A stretch of DNA of 64,000 nucleotides from Sulfurimonas sp. (GTDB taxonomy: Bacteria; Campylobacterota; Campylobacteria; Campylobacterales; Sulfurimonadaceae), in the NCBI RefSeq assembly GCF_026196735.1, contig NZ_JAPHUF010000012.1, positions 372,001-436,000 on the forward strand, in the 5' to 3' direction. The translations under genes and the position numbers were made by a program. Below the pieces are notes generated by a model. It searched no databases, was not told the origin of the DNA, and was given only the letters and a program-made list of their open reading frames with translations. Positions 57,140 through 64,000 of the stretch are shown one piece after another. Numbering within the stretch: position 1 is the first letter of the stretch; the number at the start of each line of letters is the position of its first letter.

Positions 57140-58420
57140 TTAGATTCTACCGCCAGCTGCAACACCCCAAGTAGTCCTCCATCTAGTTTTAACTAAAGAG
57201 ATACCCATGAGAGCTACTAAAACAAGTCCTGCAAATATCATAAACCCAGCTGAGTAACCATCAAAAGTTCCCTTTGACCAACCAAGTGTTTTGATAAGAA
57301 GAGTACCGCCGATACCGCCGGCTGCACCAACAAGACCAGTCATGATACCGATGTCTTTAGCAAACCTTTGAGGCACTAGTTGAAAAACTGCACCGTTTGC
57401 CATACCAAGGTTGGCCATAATAAGAAACAGTACCAATATAGCAATCCAAAATGGTAAAACAACAGTTGCGTTTAGCATTGCTAAAAGAGCAACAAGACCA
57501 AAGAAAATGTATAGAGATTTAATGCCGCCTAGTTTGTCGGCAGTTGCCCCGCCAAATGGACGCAAAACTGCACCTGCGAAGATACATAAAGCACCAAAGT
57601 AACCGGCTACAACTTTTACATTTGCTTCATCAAAAATATCAAGACCAATCGCTGACATGTCAACACTGTATGTGTTCATAAGGTAAACTTTCATATATCC
57701 TGCAAATCCTACAAATCCACCAAAAGAGATTGCATAAAATAGTGAAAACCACCATGTGTCTTTATCTTTAAGCAATTTACCGTAATCTTTTAACTTTTTA
57801 GGACGAGCAGTATAAATATCTGCCGGTGCATCTTTAGCAAGTAAAGCATAAGCGATGAAAGTAACGATAGCCATAATAGCACCAACTAAAAATACCGATT
57901 CCCATCCCCACAGCTCAGCAATTTTTGGAGCAAACAAGAAGTCTATTACAACACCGATGTTTCCGGCACCTGCAATACCAAGAACTATACCTTGAGACTT
58001 GGGTGGGTACCACTGACCGGCTTGTGGAAGTGCCACGGCAAAAGAAGCTCCTGCAAAACCAAGACCAAGTGCAACTACAAGCAGTGCGTTATATGTAATG
58101 CTCTCACCCATAAAGTAAGCTGTTAAAAGAGCTGCGATAACAACTGTTTGTGCCATTAAAGCTGTCATTTTAGCACCAAGCTTATCAACACCAAAGCCTA
58201 AAACAATTCGTAAAATTGCACCTGAAAGAATAGGAAGTGAAAGCAGAGTCGCTTTTTCCCCTGCTGTCATTATGTGACCGCCGAGCGCTAATGCTTCAGA
58301 AATCTCCGTACTCAATGGACCAAGCATTGTCCACACCATAAAACTCATATCAAAATACAAAAAAGCCATCAACAATGTTGGTGTATGTCCTTGTCCTTTT
58401 AAATCTCTTATTCCTGCCAT
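57140..58420 (-). CDS. narK: NarK-type nitrate/nitrite transporter (MFS)
   Basis: The 426-residue major facilitator protein has 12 predicted TM helices. NarK nitrate-signature-like segments are GLGFAGASFAVALPQAGQWYPPKSQGIVLGIAGAGNIGV and a second Gly-rich stretch GMANGAVFQLVPQRFAKDIGIMTGLVGAAGGIGG. Both substrate Arg regions are present (RIVLGFGVDKLG and RPFGGATADKLG). It sits downstream of a NO-reductase-like operon but in a separate unit, since a hairpin terminator lies between. It imports nitrate for the reductase at 62834 or for respiration. Confidence 0.93.
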   Translation of the reverse strand: MAGIRDLKGQGHTPTLLMAFLYFDMSFMVWTMLGPLSTEISEALALGGHIMTAGEKATLLSLPILSGAILRIVLGFGVDKLGAKMTALMAQTVVIAALLTAYFMGESITYNALLVVALGLGFAGASFAVALPQAGQWYPPKSQGIVLGIAGAGNIGVVIDFLFAPKIAELWGWESVFLVGAIMAIVTFIAYALLAKDAPADIYTARPKKLKDYGKLLKDKDTWWFSLFYAISFGGFVGFAGYMKVYLMNTYSVDMSAIGLDIFDEANVKVVAGYFGALCIFAGAVLRPFGGATADKLGGIKSLYIFFGLVALLAMLNATVVLPFWIAILVLFLIMANLGMANGAVFQLVPQRFAKDIGIMTGLVGAAGGIGGTLLIKTLGWSKGTFDGYSAGFMIFAGLVLVALMGISLVKTRWRTTWGVAAGGRI

Positions 58421-58806: not shown

Positions 58807-60435
58807 TTAATCCTTTTGTTGTGTTAAACAATTGTTTGTATCTATTTGTGCTTTTTTGTAAATCCCAAATAGACCTTTTAGACCTATGCTCATGATGATG
58901 TTATACATAAATATAACAAAGGCTAACAACATCATTGCACCACATATTCCGGCTAGTATCATATAGGTATTGTATTCACCGTTATGGTAAATAGTTCGTC
59001 TGAGCATTCCATCAATACCAGCCATACCCATAAAAGCGCCCATACCTATTCCACCCACAAGATGTAACCAAAAGTGAGCATTTGCAAGTTTTTGACTATA
59101 AAGTTTTACTCCGTTTGTTAGAATTGGAAAAAGTACATATATTGCACTGTATAGAGTCATTGTCAGACCAACTAAGATAGCGACATGAGCATGATTACCA
59201 ATAACCCACTGAGTATTATGCAAGATTCTATTCATACCAAGGTCAGCTTGAATAATCCCGGCTGGAACTGCAAGCATGAAACCTAGTATTCCGCCAAGAA
59301 GAAACTTCAATTCATTGGTCATTTTAAGTGGTTTAGCTTTGTAAAGTGTAGTTAAAACAATAAATACAGCTATACCTTGAGTTACAAGTTCAAAAGCAGT
59401 AACAACCTCGCCTGAAAGCACTTTAAGAAAATTTGACTGCCCCTGATCACTCATAAGGTGGTGAGACCATACCGTCCATGAAACCACCATTTCTACGAAA
59501 AGTGCAGCCCTTGCAATGTTTTGCATATATAAATCTTTTCCTGAAATGAGCATTGCCAACAAATACCATGTACCGGCAACAAAAATAAGGACAAGCCCGT
59601 CAGCGACTAGATCTAGACCCCACCAGAACATATTTTTATATAGTAGAGCGTCTACCCATGAATGTTCTAGATTGAGACCCATTAGACCGCTTCCTATAAA
59701 ATAGATAAGGATTAAAACTCCAGCAGTCATAATAACGATAGCATTAAGACCAACATCAATAGTACCTCTGGCAATAGCAGCAATAGGAAGCGGAACTAAA
59801 TGTTTAGTATCTTTTTTTCTAAAGAAGTTAGCTATCGCCGTAATTCCAAGAGCAGACTTTAGAAGTCCCATAGACGGTTGTTGCTCCCAACCATCAGGTG
59901 TATATATAATAGTTTTAAATATGTTGTATGTGTATAGAAATGTACCTATCATAATGCTTACAATACCTAGTATATATACAATACCGCCTATTGCAGAAAA
60001 CTGTTCTGAATCAGCAGGCAGTGGCCAGTACATAGTATATAGCGGTGCATAAGAAAACAGAAATCCTGCCAACCACATAACAAATGTACCACTACCAATA
60101 GTTATCCAAGACCAGTTTGCCATTTTAAGAGAGTATATTGGTTTTTCCATTAAATATGGTGTTAAAAATAAAAATGCCCCAAAGACAATCATATAAGATG
60201 AACCAAAAATTCCAACCATTGGATGAACCGTCATAATAGAGAAAAAGTGTGTTTCATCAATAAATGGGAGAGGCGTAATCTCATACATTCTCATAAGCAT
60301 ACCTTCTATGGCGGATAAACCATAATATAACAGTCCAATTACAACAAATCGCATTGCAATTTTCTGCATAGGTGTCATGCCTTCGTGCTTGAGACCACCA
60401 TCATTTCCATTTATTAGTGTTTTCATAAAACTCAT
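58807..60435 (-). CDS. Heme-copper oxidase superfamily subunit I, NO-reductase-like (gNOR-like)
   Basis: The 542-residue multi-helix membrane protein is of the heme-copper superfamily. Heme ligands are His71 (VHPMVG) and His415/His417 (GNHAHVA). The binuclear-site pair is His325-His326 (VWSHHLMSD). Where cNOR has HLWVE in helix VI, this protein reads DLVAD (residues 275-279), so both the first metal His and the metal Glu are Asp. There is no HPEVY motif, so it is not an ordinary oxygen reductase. From memory, a His/Asp-type site like this was described for gNOR in Campylobacterota. It probably reduces NO to N2O using quinol. Confidence 0.8.
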   Translation of the reverse strand: MSFMKTLINGNDGGLKHEGMTPMQKIAMRFVVIGLLYYGLSAIEGMLMRMYEITPLPFIDETHFFSIMTVHPMVGIFGSSYMIVFGAFLFLTPYLMEKPIYSLKMANWSWITIGSGTFVMWLAGFLFSYAPLYTMYWPLPADSEQFSAIGGIVYILGIVSIMIGTFLYTYNIFKTIIYTPDGWEQQPSMGLLKSALGITAIANFFRKKDTKHLVPLPIAAIARGTIDVGLNAIVIMTAGVLILIYFIGSGLMGLNLEHSWVDALLYKNMFWWGLDLVADGLVLIFVAGTWYLLAMLISGKDLYMQNIARAALFVEMVVSWTVWSHHLMSDQGQSNFLKVLSGEVVTAFELVTQGIAVFIVLTTLYKAKPLKMTNELKFLLGGILGFMLAVPAGIIQADLGMNRILHNTQWVIGNHAHVAILVGLTMTLYSAIYVLFPILTNGVKLYSQKLANAHFWLHLVGGIGMGAFMGMAGIDGMLRRTIYHNGEYNTYMILAGICGAMMLLAFVIFMYNIIMSIGLKGLFGIYKKAQIDTNNCLTQQKD

Positions 60436-60448
60436 ATATACCTCCTCC

Positions 60449-61030
60449 TTATTTCATAGAGCGGATGTCGTCTTCTTGACAACCGCTTACTACTATTGCA
60501 TCTTCTATAATCATCTGTGTACCTTTTGGACCGGAATACTCAGTAGAACGAATGTAGTAAGTACCATTTTTAAGAAATTTCCACATTAAATCATTTCTAT
60601 TATCAGCAACTACTTGCATCTGAGTAACCATTGTATGGTCCTGTCTGAAAATCCCAAATCCATAAGTCAAGTCATTACTATATGCATCAAACACAACATA
60701 TTCATTACATGGAACTTGTAGTTGTGGTTCTTCTAAAACAATTTTATGATTCTCATAAGTAATTTTAAAAGTTTTTTCAGATTTTATGTTAGCTCTGTCT
60801 AAATCTATAGGTACCCAAGGCACAACATTGAAAGTTAAAAAGTGTAAACCAGTTCCAATAACCACTAAAACGCTTACATAACTCCAAAAGTAGACAGGTT
60901 TAACTACTTTTTTTGATTCTCCATCTTGTGTAATGCGATATGCATACCACCCAATAAGTGATATAGCTGCTAAAGCATAAATTGTATATACAAGCTTTAG
61001 TGTGCTTAATACATCAACTGAATCCGCCAT
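60449..61030 (-). CDS. Cupredoxin-fold subunit II lacking CuA ligands
   Basis: The 193-residue partner of the subunit above is oxidase subunit II-like. It has two N-terminal TM helices (about 12-31 and 47-70) and a periplasmic cupredoxin domain. In CuA proteins the final loop is C-x3-C-x3-H-x2-M. Here it is Ser162, Ser166, Gly170 and Met173 (GTYYIRSTEYSGPKGTQM), and the upstream His is Tyr123 (NDLTYGFGI). CuA is therefore absent, so cytochrome c is unlikely to donate through it; quinol is a likelier donor. It lies 13 bases upstream of subunit I. Confidence 0.82.
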   Translation of the reverse strand: MADSVDVLSTLKLVYTIYALAAISLIGWYAYRITQDGESKKVVKPVYFWSYVSVLVVIGTGLHFLTFNVVPWVPIDLDRANIKSEKTFKITYENHKIVLEEPQLQVPCNEYVVFDAYSNDLTYGFGIFRQDHTMVTQMQVVADNRNDLMWKFLKNGTYYIRSTEYSGPKGTQMIIEDAIVVSGCQEDDIRSMK

Positions 61031-61197
61031 ATATCTCTCCTACTAAATTAATGAGATAACTTTACCACTTTTTGTGATTTAATAAACCTATTAATTGTAT
61101 AATAATTAATCAATACAGTGATTATTAGTTTACATGTAGATTTTAAATTAATATTAAGTAAATATATTTAAAAGGTAGCTTGATTAAATTTTACTCA

Positions 61198-61215
61198 TGA
61201 TAATAATCAATATCA
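61198..61215. promoter_or_regulatory. Fur-like sequence upstream of the fused DmsB-DmsC gene
   Basis: TGATAATAATCAATATCA contains one good Fur half site (TGATAAT) and a weaker second one. It lies 54-71 bases before the 61269 start. It resembles the Fur boxes at 5167 and 6419 but is clearly weaker. A different repeat, TAATCA-N6-TGATTA (61107-61124), is also present in this 238-base gap, and a TACATGTA octamer is at 61131. Confidence 0.3.
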
Positions 61216-61268: not shown

Positions 61269-62837
61269 ATGCAAACACCTTTAGAGAGTTTTATAGACCA
61301 CAAGGCCGATACAGGAATGCAGTGTGGTAACTACTCTATAGATATTCCAAAGCTGCAAGAGGGTGAACAGTATAGGTTTCATTTCGATGCGACGGCTTGT
61401 GTAGGATGTCACTGCTGTGAAGTTGCATGTAATGAGCAAAACAACAACCCTGCAGATATAAAATGGAGAAGAGTAGGTGAGATAGAGGGTGGAGAATTTC
61501 CTGCTTTCTCGCAGCTTTTTAACTCTATGAGCTGTAATCACTGTATAGACCCTGAGTGTTTAAAAGGGTGTCCGACAAATTCTTATATAAAGATAGACGA
61601 GACTGGAATTGTCGTGCATGATGATGATACATGTATAGGTTGCCAGTACTGTACTTGGAACTGTCCTTATGAGGTTCCTGTATTTCATGAAGAGCGTAAG
61701 ATTGTAACAAAGTGTCATATGTGTCATGAGAGACTCGATGTCGGTCAAACTCCTGCCTGCGTTCAGGCTTGTCCGTCCGGAGCAATCGAGATTGAAGTTG
61801 TAAATGTTAAAGAGTGGCTAGATGGTGCAATAGATAGAGAAGCAAATATGCCTTTCTTGCCTGATGCTAGAATCACAAACTCTACTACAAGATACACACT
61901 ACCTGATAATTTGCCAGAGAACATGAAAGAGGTTGATGAGCATATACTTCGCCCCGCCCACTCTGAACTGCCGCTTGTTTTTATGACAGTTCTGACTCAA
62001 ATCTCTCTTGGTGGATTTTTAGCACTGTTTATGGGCAATGTTATGAGTCTGTTTGGATTTCCTGAGGTCAACTGGATAATGGCTCTTTTAGTTATGCTTC
62101 CCGCAGCCCTTGGACTTCCTCTTTCTGCTCTTCATCTAGGTCGTCCATTTTTGGCTCTAACTGCAATGAAAAACATAAAGACTTCATGGCTTTCCCGTGA
62201 AGCACTGGCTCTTGGAGTTTTTGTACTGCTTATGAATATTGTTGTTGTTTTATACTTTTTAGAAGTTTCTCAGACAATAATACTTTTAGTTGAGATTTTA
62301 ACATTGACATGTGGAGTTTTTGGAATCTATGCGCAAGCAATGATCTACCGTATAAAAGCTCGTCCGGCATGGGATAGAACTACAACAAATCTGAAATTTT
62401 TTGCAACTCTGCATGTAGGAATATTTTTACTTGCTTTTGTGGCTGTTATTTTAGGAATGCTTAAAGTTGCTTTTCCGCTTATAGCACTGGCAATGTTAGG
62501 CGCGATTTCACAGATGTTTTTTACATATGAAGATTTAAGAACACTAAAAAGTGAAACTAAAAATGAGTACCAGTTAAAAAGAACCGCAAGACTTTACGAT
62601 GAGAACTTTAAAAATATAAAACTGTTTCGTTTTATATCTATAGCTTTAGGTGGAATTATTCTGCCTCTATTAGTTATTGTACTGCTTAGTTCAGCTTCTT
62701 TTGCTGGAGCATCTTTAGTGATGTTTCTATCTTTAGTTCTTGTTTTTGCAAGTGAGATAAGTGATAGATTTTTATTTTATTCTACAGTTGTTCCTCTTGG
62801 AATGGCGGGTGGATTTTTTGTAGGAAAACAACGATGA
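61269..62837 (+). CDS. Fused DmsB-type ferredoxin and DmsC-type membrane anchor
   Basis: The 522-residue fusion carries an N-terminal four-cluster ferredoxin domain (about 1-190). Its Cys motifs include CVGCHCCEVAC, CNHCIDPECLKGCP, CIGCQYCTWNCP, CHMCHERL and CVQACP. The C-terminal part (about 225-522) has eight or so TM helices in DmsC style. The two parts are separate subunits in DMSO reductase. It would pass electrons from the quinol pool to the molybdenum enzyme, whose ATG overlaps this stop (ATGA). No Tat signal is present, so the Fe-S part should face the cytoplasm. Confidence 0.88.
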   Translation: MQTPLESFIDHKADTGMQCGNYSIDIPKLQEGEQYRFHFDATACVGCHCCEVACNEQNNNPADIKWRRVGEIEGGEFPAFSQLFNSMSCNHCIDPECLKGCPTNSYIKIDETGIVVHDDDTCIGCQYCTWNCPYEVPVFHEERKIVTKCHMCHERLDVGQTPACVQACPSGAIEIEVVNVKEWLDGAIDREANMPFLPDARITNSTTRYTLPDNLPENMKEVDEHILRPAHSELPLVFMTVLTQISLGGFLALFMGNVMSLFGFPEVNWIMALLVMLPAALGLPLSALHLGRPFLALTAMKNIKTSWLSREALALGVFVLLMNIVVVLYFLEVSQTIILLVEILTLTCGVFGIYAQAMIYRIKARPAWDRTTTNLKFFATLHVGIFLLAFVAVILGMLKVAFPLIALAMLGAISQMFFTYEDLRTLKSETKNEYQLKRTARLYDENFKNIKLFRFISIALGGIILPLLVIVLLSSASFAGASLVMFLSLVLVFASEISDRFLFYSTVVPLGMAGGFFVGKQR

Positions 62838-64000
62838 TTAGCAAATTAAAAGATTTTTTAGGTTTTGATATAAAAGCGGATAAGTATAAACTATCTTCAG
62901 ATCCGCAGTTTGGAATGATAAGTGATGAGAAGAAACCGGACAAATGGGTTTTTTCTACATGTGGATATTGTGGAGTTGGTTGTGGGCTGTATATCGGTGT
63001 TAAGGACGATAAAGCAGTATATACAAAAGGCAATCCTAAGCATGATGTGAACATGGGAACTCTGTGTCCAAAAGGTTTGAGTGAGCATCAGCTTATAAAT
63101 TCACCCCAGAGAGTGACTACGCCGCTTATAAAAAAGGGCGGAGAGTTGGTTTATGCTTCTTGGGAAGATGCATATACAAAAGTATCTGATGAGTTTAAGC
63201 ACATAGCTAATGAGCACGGGTCTAAAGCAGTAGGTGTTATATCAAGCGGACAGCTTTTGACAGAGGAATTTTACACTTTAGGAAAGTTTGTTCAGCTTGG
63301 ACTTCAAACAAATAACTATGACGGAAACACAACTTTGTGTATGGCATCTGCTGTTATGGGCTACAAACAGTCACTTGGCTCAGATGGACCTGTCGGTTCT
63401 TATGAAGATTTTGAAAAAGCAAATACGATTATTTTAATAGGTGCAAACATCCCTGATAATCATCCTATTTTAAAACTACATATTGCTAAAAATAAGAAAA
63501 AGCCTAAGATAATCGTAATAGACCCAAGAGCATCCAAGACCTCCCAAATGGCTGACATGTACATTCCGATAAAGCCAAGAACCGATCTTGCACTGTTTAA
63601 CGGACTTGCATATATCATAATGGAACAAGGCTGGGAGGATGAGGGTTATATAAAAGCAAACACTAACGGATACAAAGAACTAAAAAAGCATCTACAAAAT
63701 TATCCGCCTGGGGAAGTGGCAAACATAACCGGCATAGATGTTAAAACACTTTATGAGATTGCCCGTCAGTTTGCAGCTCAAGATGCAGTTTTGTCTGCTT
63801 GGACTATGGGAGTGAACCAATCTTTTATGGGGACAGATACTGTAAGCGCAATTATAAACCTGCATCTTTTAACAGGACAAATTGGAAAAGAAGGAGCAGG
63901 TCCTTTTTCCATAACTGGGCAGTGTAATGCTATGGGCACGAGAGAGAGCGGTTTTACATCTTCACTTCCGGGATATAGAAACTTTGGTGACATGTCAAGC
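62834..64000 (+). CDS. Molybdopterin oxidoreductase, NasA/NarB-type nitrate reductase (partial)
   Basis: The 389 visible residues run off the right edge. A [4Fe-4S] site is formed by Cys43, Cys46, Cys50 and Cys78 (TCGYCGVGC, GTLCPKG). The likely Mo ligand is Cys169 in NYDGNTTLCMASAVMGYK, matching the NasA/NarB pattern. TGQCNAMGTRESG also fits assimilatory nitrate reductases. No Tat signal, so cytoplasmic. It is coupled to the fused ferredoxin-anchor gene. A quinol-linked cytoplasmic nitrate reductase is the best reading, with formate dehydrogenase-like activity a weaker alternative. Confidence 0.85.
   Translation, partial: MISKLKDFLGFDIKADKYKLSSDPQFGMISDEKKPDKWVFSTCGYCGVGCGLYIGVKDDKAVYTKGNPKHDVNMGTLCPKGLSEHQLINSPQRVTTPLIKKGGELVYASWEDAYTKVSDEFKHIANEHGSKAVGVISSGQLLTEEFYTLGKFVQLGLQTNNYDGNTTLCMASAVMGYKQSLGSDGPVGSYEDFEKANTIILIGANIPDNHPILKLHIAKNKKKPKIIVIDPRASKTSQMADMYIPIKPRTDLALFNGLAYIIMEQGWEDEGYIKANTNGYKELKKHLQNYPPGEVANITGIDVKTLYEIARQFAAQDAVLSAWTMGVNQSFMGTDTVSAIINLHLLTGQIGKEGAGPFSITGQCNAMGTRESGFTSSLPGYRNFGDMSS

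Follow-up and report, generated by a model that had tools for sequence, protein, structure and literature searches.

What reaction is catalyzed by a heme-copper enzyme that carries two aspartates and no histidine in its metal-binding helix VI? The question is raised by a gene on the minus strand (58807..60435) of the window, i.e., the whole stretch of 64,000 nucleotides of Sulfurimonas DNA that was analyzed. Its product is quite likely gNOR, a two-subunit, membrane-bound, quinol-dependent NO reductase with an FeB site of the His2Asp2 type that probably contains iron.

Two invariant aspartates in helix VI

The gene translates into 542 amino acids followed by a stop codon, and Pfam COX1 (E=1.7e-51) and an AF2 model identify the product as subunit I, the catalytic subunit, of a heme-copper enzyme. 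Residues 271-280 read WWGLDLVADG, encoded by the minus-strand codons TGG TGG GGT CTA GAT CTA GTC GCT GAC GGG. Asp275 (GAT, 59611..59613) occupies the metal-ligand position of helix VI, and Asp279 (GAC, 59599..59601) lies four residues further on. Translation and alignments place the remaining two FeB/CuB ligands at His325-His326 (59458..59463), the high-spin heme ligand at His415 together with the low-spin heme ligand His417 (59185..59193), and the second low-spin heme ligand at His71 (60223..60225), all on the minus strand. The initial annotation, which had described a heme-copper subunit with Asp275 and Asp279 in helix VI, these two codons, five intact histidines and no HPEVY motif, was correct in each of these respects; the histidines are also conserved among homologues. 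Since subunit I reached no NCBIfam cut-off, it would receive a generic cytochrome oxidase label in standard annotation.

The AF2 model of subunit I (pLDDT 81.1, pTM 0.86) matches subunit I of the aa3 and bo3 enzymes with a TM-score of about 0.75, and its confidence is lower near helix VI (about 66 for residues 261-280). A search of solved structures revealed no close relative of gNOR; the top matches were subunit I of ba3, aa3 and cbb3.

Homologues were collected from 84,980 species genomes, which yielded 67 loci, and from 60 related genomes, which yielded additional ones. Asp275, Asp279, His71, His325 and His326 are invariant in all 74 full-length homologues aligned (74/74), as are His415 and His417 save for one masked row, even though pairwise identity between representatives goes down to about 53%. 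These 74 relatives were drawn from Campylobacterota, Bacteroidota, Aquificota, Actinomycetota and others. The hosts in the records include Sulfurimonas, Sulfurovum, Nitratiruptor, Persephonella, other Aquificota, many Bacteroidota, Chlorobiota, Actinomycetes and others, but individual host names may be wrong, as most records are metagenome bins. A later search in Actinomycetota and Bacteroidota gave 12 gNOR proteins spanning helix VI, a few of which overlap with the first set, and all read WWGLDL(I/V)ADG. Thus, the double aspartate is the rule of the whole family and not a local oddity.

Asp275 falls in the CuB/FeB histidine column of all reference families in a MAFFT alignment of the superfamily, and hhalign placed it on the ligand histidine of a group of actinobacterial HPVVY proteins (probability 99.9%, E=2.2e-33). 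The register was one residue off in a second MAFFT run and in hhalign against family C. Counted from the helix VI ligand, the HH pair follows after 50 residues in gNOR and family C, after 49 in A/B and after 51 in cNOR/qNOR, and the one-residue slips are attributed to the spacing of 50 in gNOR vs. 49 in A/B. One gNOR (L003) has a spacing of 51 due to one additional residue in the loop following helix VI. The possibility that a histidine elsewhere in helix VI contributes to the metal site was also considered; there is none anywhere in this helix of gNOR, and, as Leu274 cannot ligate a metal, Asp275 is the sole ligand candidate. Asp279, at +4, appears to match the position of the cross-linked tyrosine in oxidases and of the glutamate in cNOR/qNOR, but gap placement is less certain there.

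The place of gNOR among heme-copper enzymes

The family was not new. gNOR (norGH) is credited to Sievert et al. (2008) and Hemp and Gennis (2008), as cited in PMC8756737. Table A4 of that paper, in which the gNOR entry is credited to Sievert et al. (2008), lists D as the active-site residue and Sulfurimonas, Sulfurovum and Persephonella as hosts; the enzyme is described as having two subunits, with a cupredoxin subunit II, and as lacking a conserved proton channel (PMC8756737). It has further been described as quinone-oxidizing and non-electrogenic (PMC8906906), and was still presented as proposed, not characterized, in a 2024 paper (PMC11388526). The window protein shares with the published gNOR the active-site aspartate in helix VI, the hosts, with Sulfurimonas, Sulfurovum and Persephonella homologues in one clade, the two subunits and the cupredoxin nature of subunit II, the comparison being one with the published description and not with labelled sequences. 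The table names a single aspartate, which is apparently the +4 residue (PMC8756737). The link to gNOR had already been drawn in the initial annotation, and the listed residue and host bear it out (PMC8756737). Judged by its sequence, the window protein is a typical member of this already named family, in which the double aspartate is not unusual. What is added here is the count of invariant residues, the pattern of CuA loss, the links to regulators and neighboring genes, and the co-occurrence table, with which Murali et al. (2024) may overlap.

In an IQ-TREE phylogeny, constructed without labelled eNOR, sNOR, bNOR and nNOR sequences, gNOR forms a single clade (support 100/100) beside the A and B oxygen reductases and apart from C, cNOR and qNOR, which agrees with the reported relationship of gNOR to B-family oxygen reductases (PMC11388526). 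Homologues from Persephonella (L057) and Sulfurovum (L061) fall in this clade; together with a second Persephonella locus (L063) and the Sulfurimonas loci, they are about 60-93% identical. When the actinobacterial HPVVY set was added, gNOR paired with it, but this pairing is weak (83/82) and joins long branches. These oxidase-like proteins (L164, L165, L167, L168, L169 and L172) are the closest outside group to gNOR by profile, share with it an HNTxW stretch ahead of the heme-ligand pair, and possibly represent a distinct oxygen reductase subfamily. Another divergent group, found in Pseudomonadota genomes (L147, L150, L152, L154 and L155), is cbb3-like and resembles CcoN, with the active-site motifs WWFAHN and AAHH.

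The initial annotation had placed the aspartates at the positions of the histidine and glutamate of NO reductases. The positions stand, whereas the implied origin from an altered cNOR or qNOR does not. By eye, the helix VI layout WW-x-x-(H/D)-x-x-x-(E/D) is alike, and cNOR (NorBC) shares with gNOR the superfamily, the presumed reaction and a carboxylate near FeB. However, the helix VI histidine and glutamate of cNOR/qNOR are absent from gNOR, which is not placed with NorB but sits with the A/B oxygen reductases in the tree. Moreover, hhalign gave a probability of 3% against cNOR, albeit represented by just two sequences, vs. 99.9% against the nearest oxidase-like group, and subunit II is a cupredoxin, in contrast to the heme c subunit of cNOR. 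It is, therefore, highly improbable that gNOR is a canonical cNOR/qNOR-type enzyme in which histidine and glutamate were swapped for aspartates.

This placement brings up an oxygen reductase, i.e., a low-affinity or side-branch quinol oxidase with an odd site. The closest relatives by profile and tree, the A/B oxygen reductases and the HPVVY group, are indeed oxygen-reductase-like, and subunit II resembles its counterpart in the bo3 quinol oxidase. The A/B oxygen reductases have a cross-linked tyrosine four residues past the helix VI histidine. In gNOR, this histidine and tyrosine are both missing, so that the set of three histidine ligands of the A, B and C families is incomplete, and the reaction is presumed to be different; furthermore, among the relatives sampled, gNOR is found almost only together with NirS and cNOR. 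An oxygen-reducing function is, therefore, quite unlikely. As gNOR clusters with A/B and far from cNOR/qNOR, the derived changes would be histidine to aspartate and tyrosine to aspartate. Tentatively, and with a chance somewhat short of even, NO reduction by gNOR might have arisen independently, from an ancestor similar to the oxygen reductases, in which these two helix VI substitutions created a two-carboxylate heme/non-heme-iron site with a mechanism distinct from that of cNOR.

Subunit II and the predicted reaction

The gene for subunit II (60449..61030, minus strand) stops 13 bases upstream of that for subunit I. Its product contains two transmembrane helices and a cupredoxin domain with a weak match to CoxB (E=5.6e-5). 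Relative to CoxB, the CuA ligands are replaced: a histidine by Tyr123 and the cysteines by Ser162 and Ser166, whilst the second histidine is lost; Glu164 and Met173 are kept in the alignment. Subunit II adjoins subunit I in nearly all loci, and its homologues clustered in 61 loci, compared with 69 loci that have subunit I. Contig truncation or an antisense artefact accounts for some of the loci that lack a clustered subunit II, and a cluster that had looked like subunit II was rejected as antisense. In all 61 clear homologues, the CuA ligands are replaced, with serine at position 166 in 60 of them and alanine in the remaining one. The AF2 model (pLDDT 89.4) shows two long helices and a beta barrel, and its best fold match in the PDB is subunit II of the bo3 quinol oxidase. 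This protein, CyoA, likewise has a cupredoxin domain without CuA, whereas subunit I of bo3 is of the A type, with the helix VI histidine and tyrosine that gNOR does not have. Since the CuA ligands are replaced, electron entry via CuA is unlikely, which suggests quinol as the donor.

The cNOR site consists of heme b3 and FeB, the latter held by three histidines and a glutamate, and carboxylate-rich sites favor iron. From the established chemistry of cNOR, a site of two histidines and two carboxylates is envisaged for gNOR, and, as such a site suits iron better than copper, it would probably consist of a heme iron and FeB. The route, including substrate, donor, metal and the direction of proton flow, can then be predicted as follows. 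Electrons would probably come from quinol, i.e., menaquinol in the phylum of Sulfurimonas, and pass via the low-spin heme (His71/His417) to the high-spin heme (His415). Opposite the latter would lie the second metal, coordinated by His325, His326 and Asp275, and Asp279 would serve as either a fourth ligand or a proton donor. The reaction would be 2 NO + 2 e- + 2 H+ -> N2O + H2O, and proton pumping is likely absent. In part, the literature likewise predicts a quinol donor, the absence of pumping, and N2O and water as products (PMC8756737, PMC8906906).

Genomic context and regulation

The same Sulfurimonas genome encodes three heme-copper enzymes, i.e., the cbb3 subunit CcoN, a canonical cNOR NorB and gNOR; the separate cNOR carries WWVIHLWVEATWE. 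Genes for a cytochrome d1-type NirS and for NapA are also present, whilst NosZ of model TIGR04246 was not found in this assembly (G000), which is rated 100% complete. With NapA, NirS, cNOR and gNOR present but no nosZ of this type, N2O may be the end product. Among 60 related genomes, NirS and cNOR were both found in 19 of the 20 that carry gNOR vs. 9 of the 40 that do not (Fisher p=5e-8, uncorrected for kinship), some of the gNOR calls being fragments at contig ends. This context supports NO reduction by gNOR, which would probably clear NO arising from NirS or from nitrate/nitrite use, alongside the canonical cNOR. A Sulfurimonas with both enzymes would allow a direct test of the role of the His2Asp2 site. 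In sulfidic and low-oxygen waters, gNOR may also contribute N2O that would escape common norB surveys.

The neighboring genes point in part elsewhere. Downstream of gNOR lies a gene for a NarK-family nitrate/nitrite transporter (57140..58420, minus strand; TIGR00886, 224.6 bits, under the cut-off of 311.7). On the plus strand, the divergent neighbor encodes a DmsB-DmsC-like fusion of an Fe-S protein and a membrane anchor (61269..62837; Pfam Fer4_11 and DmsC), followed by the start of a gene for a NasA/NapA-like molybdopterin oxidoreductase (62834..64000), which extends beyond the window to 65125 in window numbering and of which a clustered relative matches the NasC/NasA models under the cut-off. 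A NirA-like gene is located further along. As such NarK-, NasA-, DmsBC- and NirA-like genes adjoin gNOR in several Campylobacterota, the enzyme could be imagined to catalyze another nitrogen-oxide reaction, e.g., NO dismutation, or to be protective in the context of nitrate assimilation instead of functioning in NO respiration. One genome (G058) would fit, as its gNOR (L159) is accompanied by NirA and NarK but by neither NirS nor cNOR. However, the neighborhood is not kept in other phyla, and gNOR co-occurs with NirS and cNOR, so such a function is unlikely and NO reduction is preferred. In L159 itself, gNOR lies beside NarK, a NirA-like protein and a PP2C-kinase fusion, which suggests a role outside denitrification for this particular gNOR, as judged from gene content.

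Two gNOR sequences (L035 and L036), 74-77% identical to the window protein, are located on short contigs of gammaproteobacterial Woeseiaceae MAGs and may reflect misbinning or recent transfer; a search of 249 Pseudomonadota genomes gave no gNOR other than the one in the L035 genome. A search of a plasmid collection gave oxidases among the matches listed.

As to regulation, 18 loci carry, directly upstream of the subunit II gene and in the same orientation, a gene for an Rrf2-family regulator that contains a CX6CX5C motif, and a 19th (L082) has a CX6CX4C variant in this position. These loci (L041, L043, L045, L046, L048, L050, L052, L054, L058, L059, L060, L065, L066, L068, L070, L076, L077, L082 and L089) belong to Bacteroidota and a few others. 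The regulator may act on the gNOR operon as an NO or Fe-S sensor. Not all Rrf2 regulators are NO sensors, and the one that was tested against the NsrR model scored under the cut-off. Boxes resembling TTGAT-N4-ATCAA (FNR/DNR-type) were found upstream in 16 of 59 gNOR loci at p<=0.05, where about 3 would be expected from simple base shuffles. In the window, an FNR-like box at 61197-61210 was rejected as the gNOR promoter, as the window holds 7 matches vs. 7.5 expected and the box sits nearer to the divergent gene. Finally, about 20 loci of Campylobacterota and Aquificota, including L160 and L162, encode a membrane protein about 198 residues long downstream of subunit I; the one that was tested had no Pfam match.
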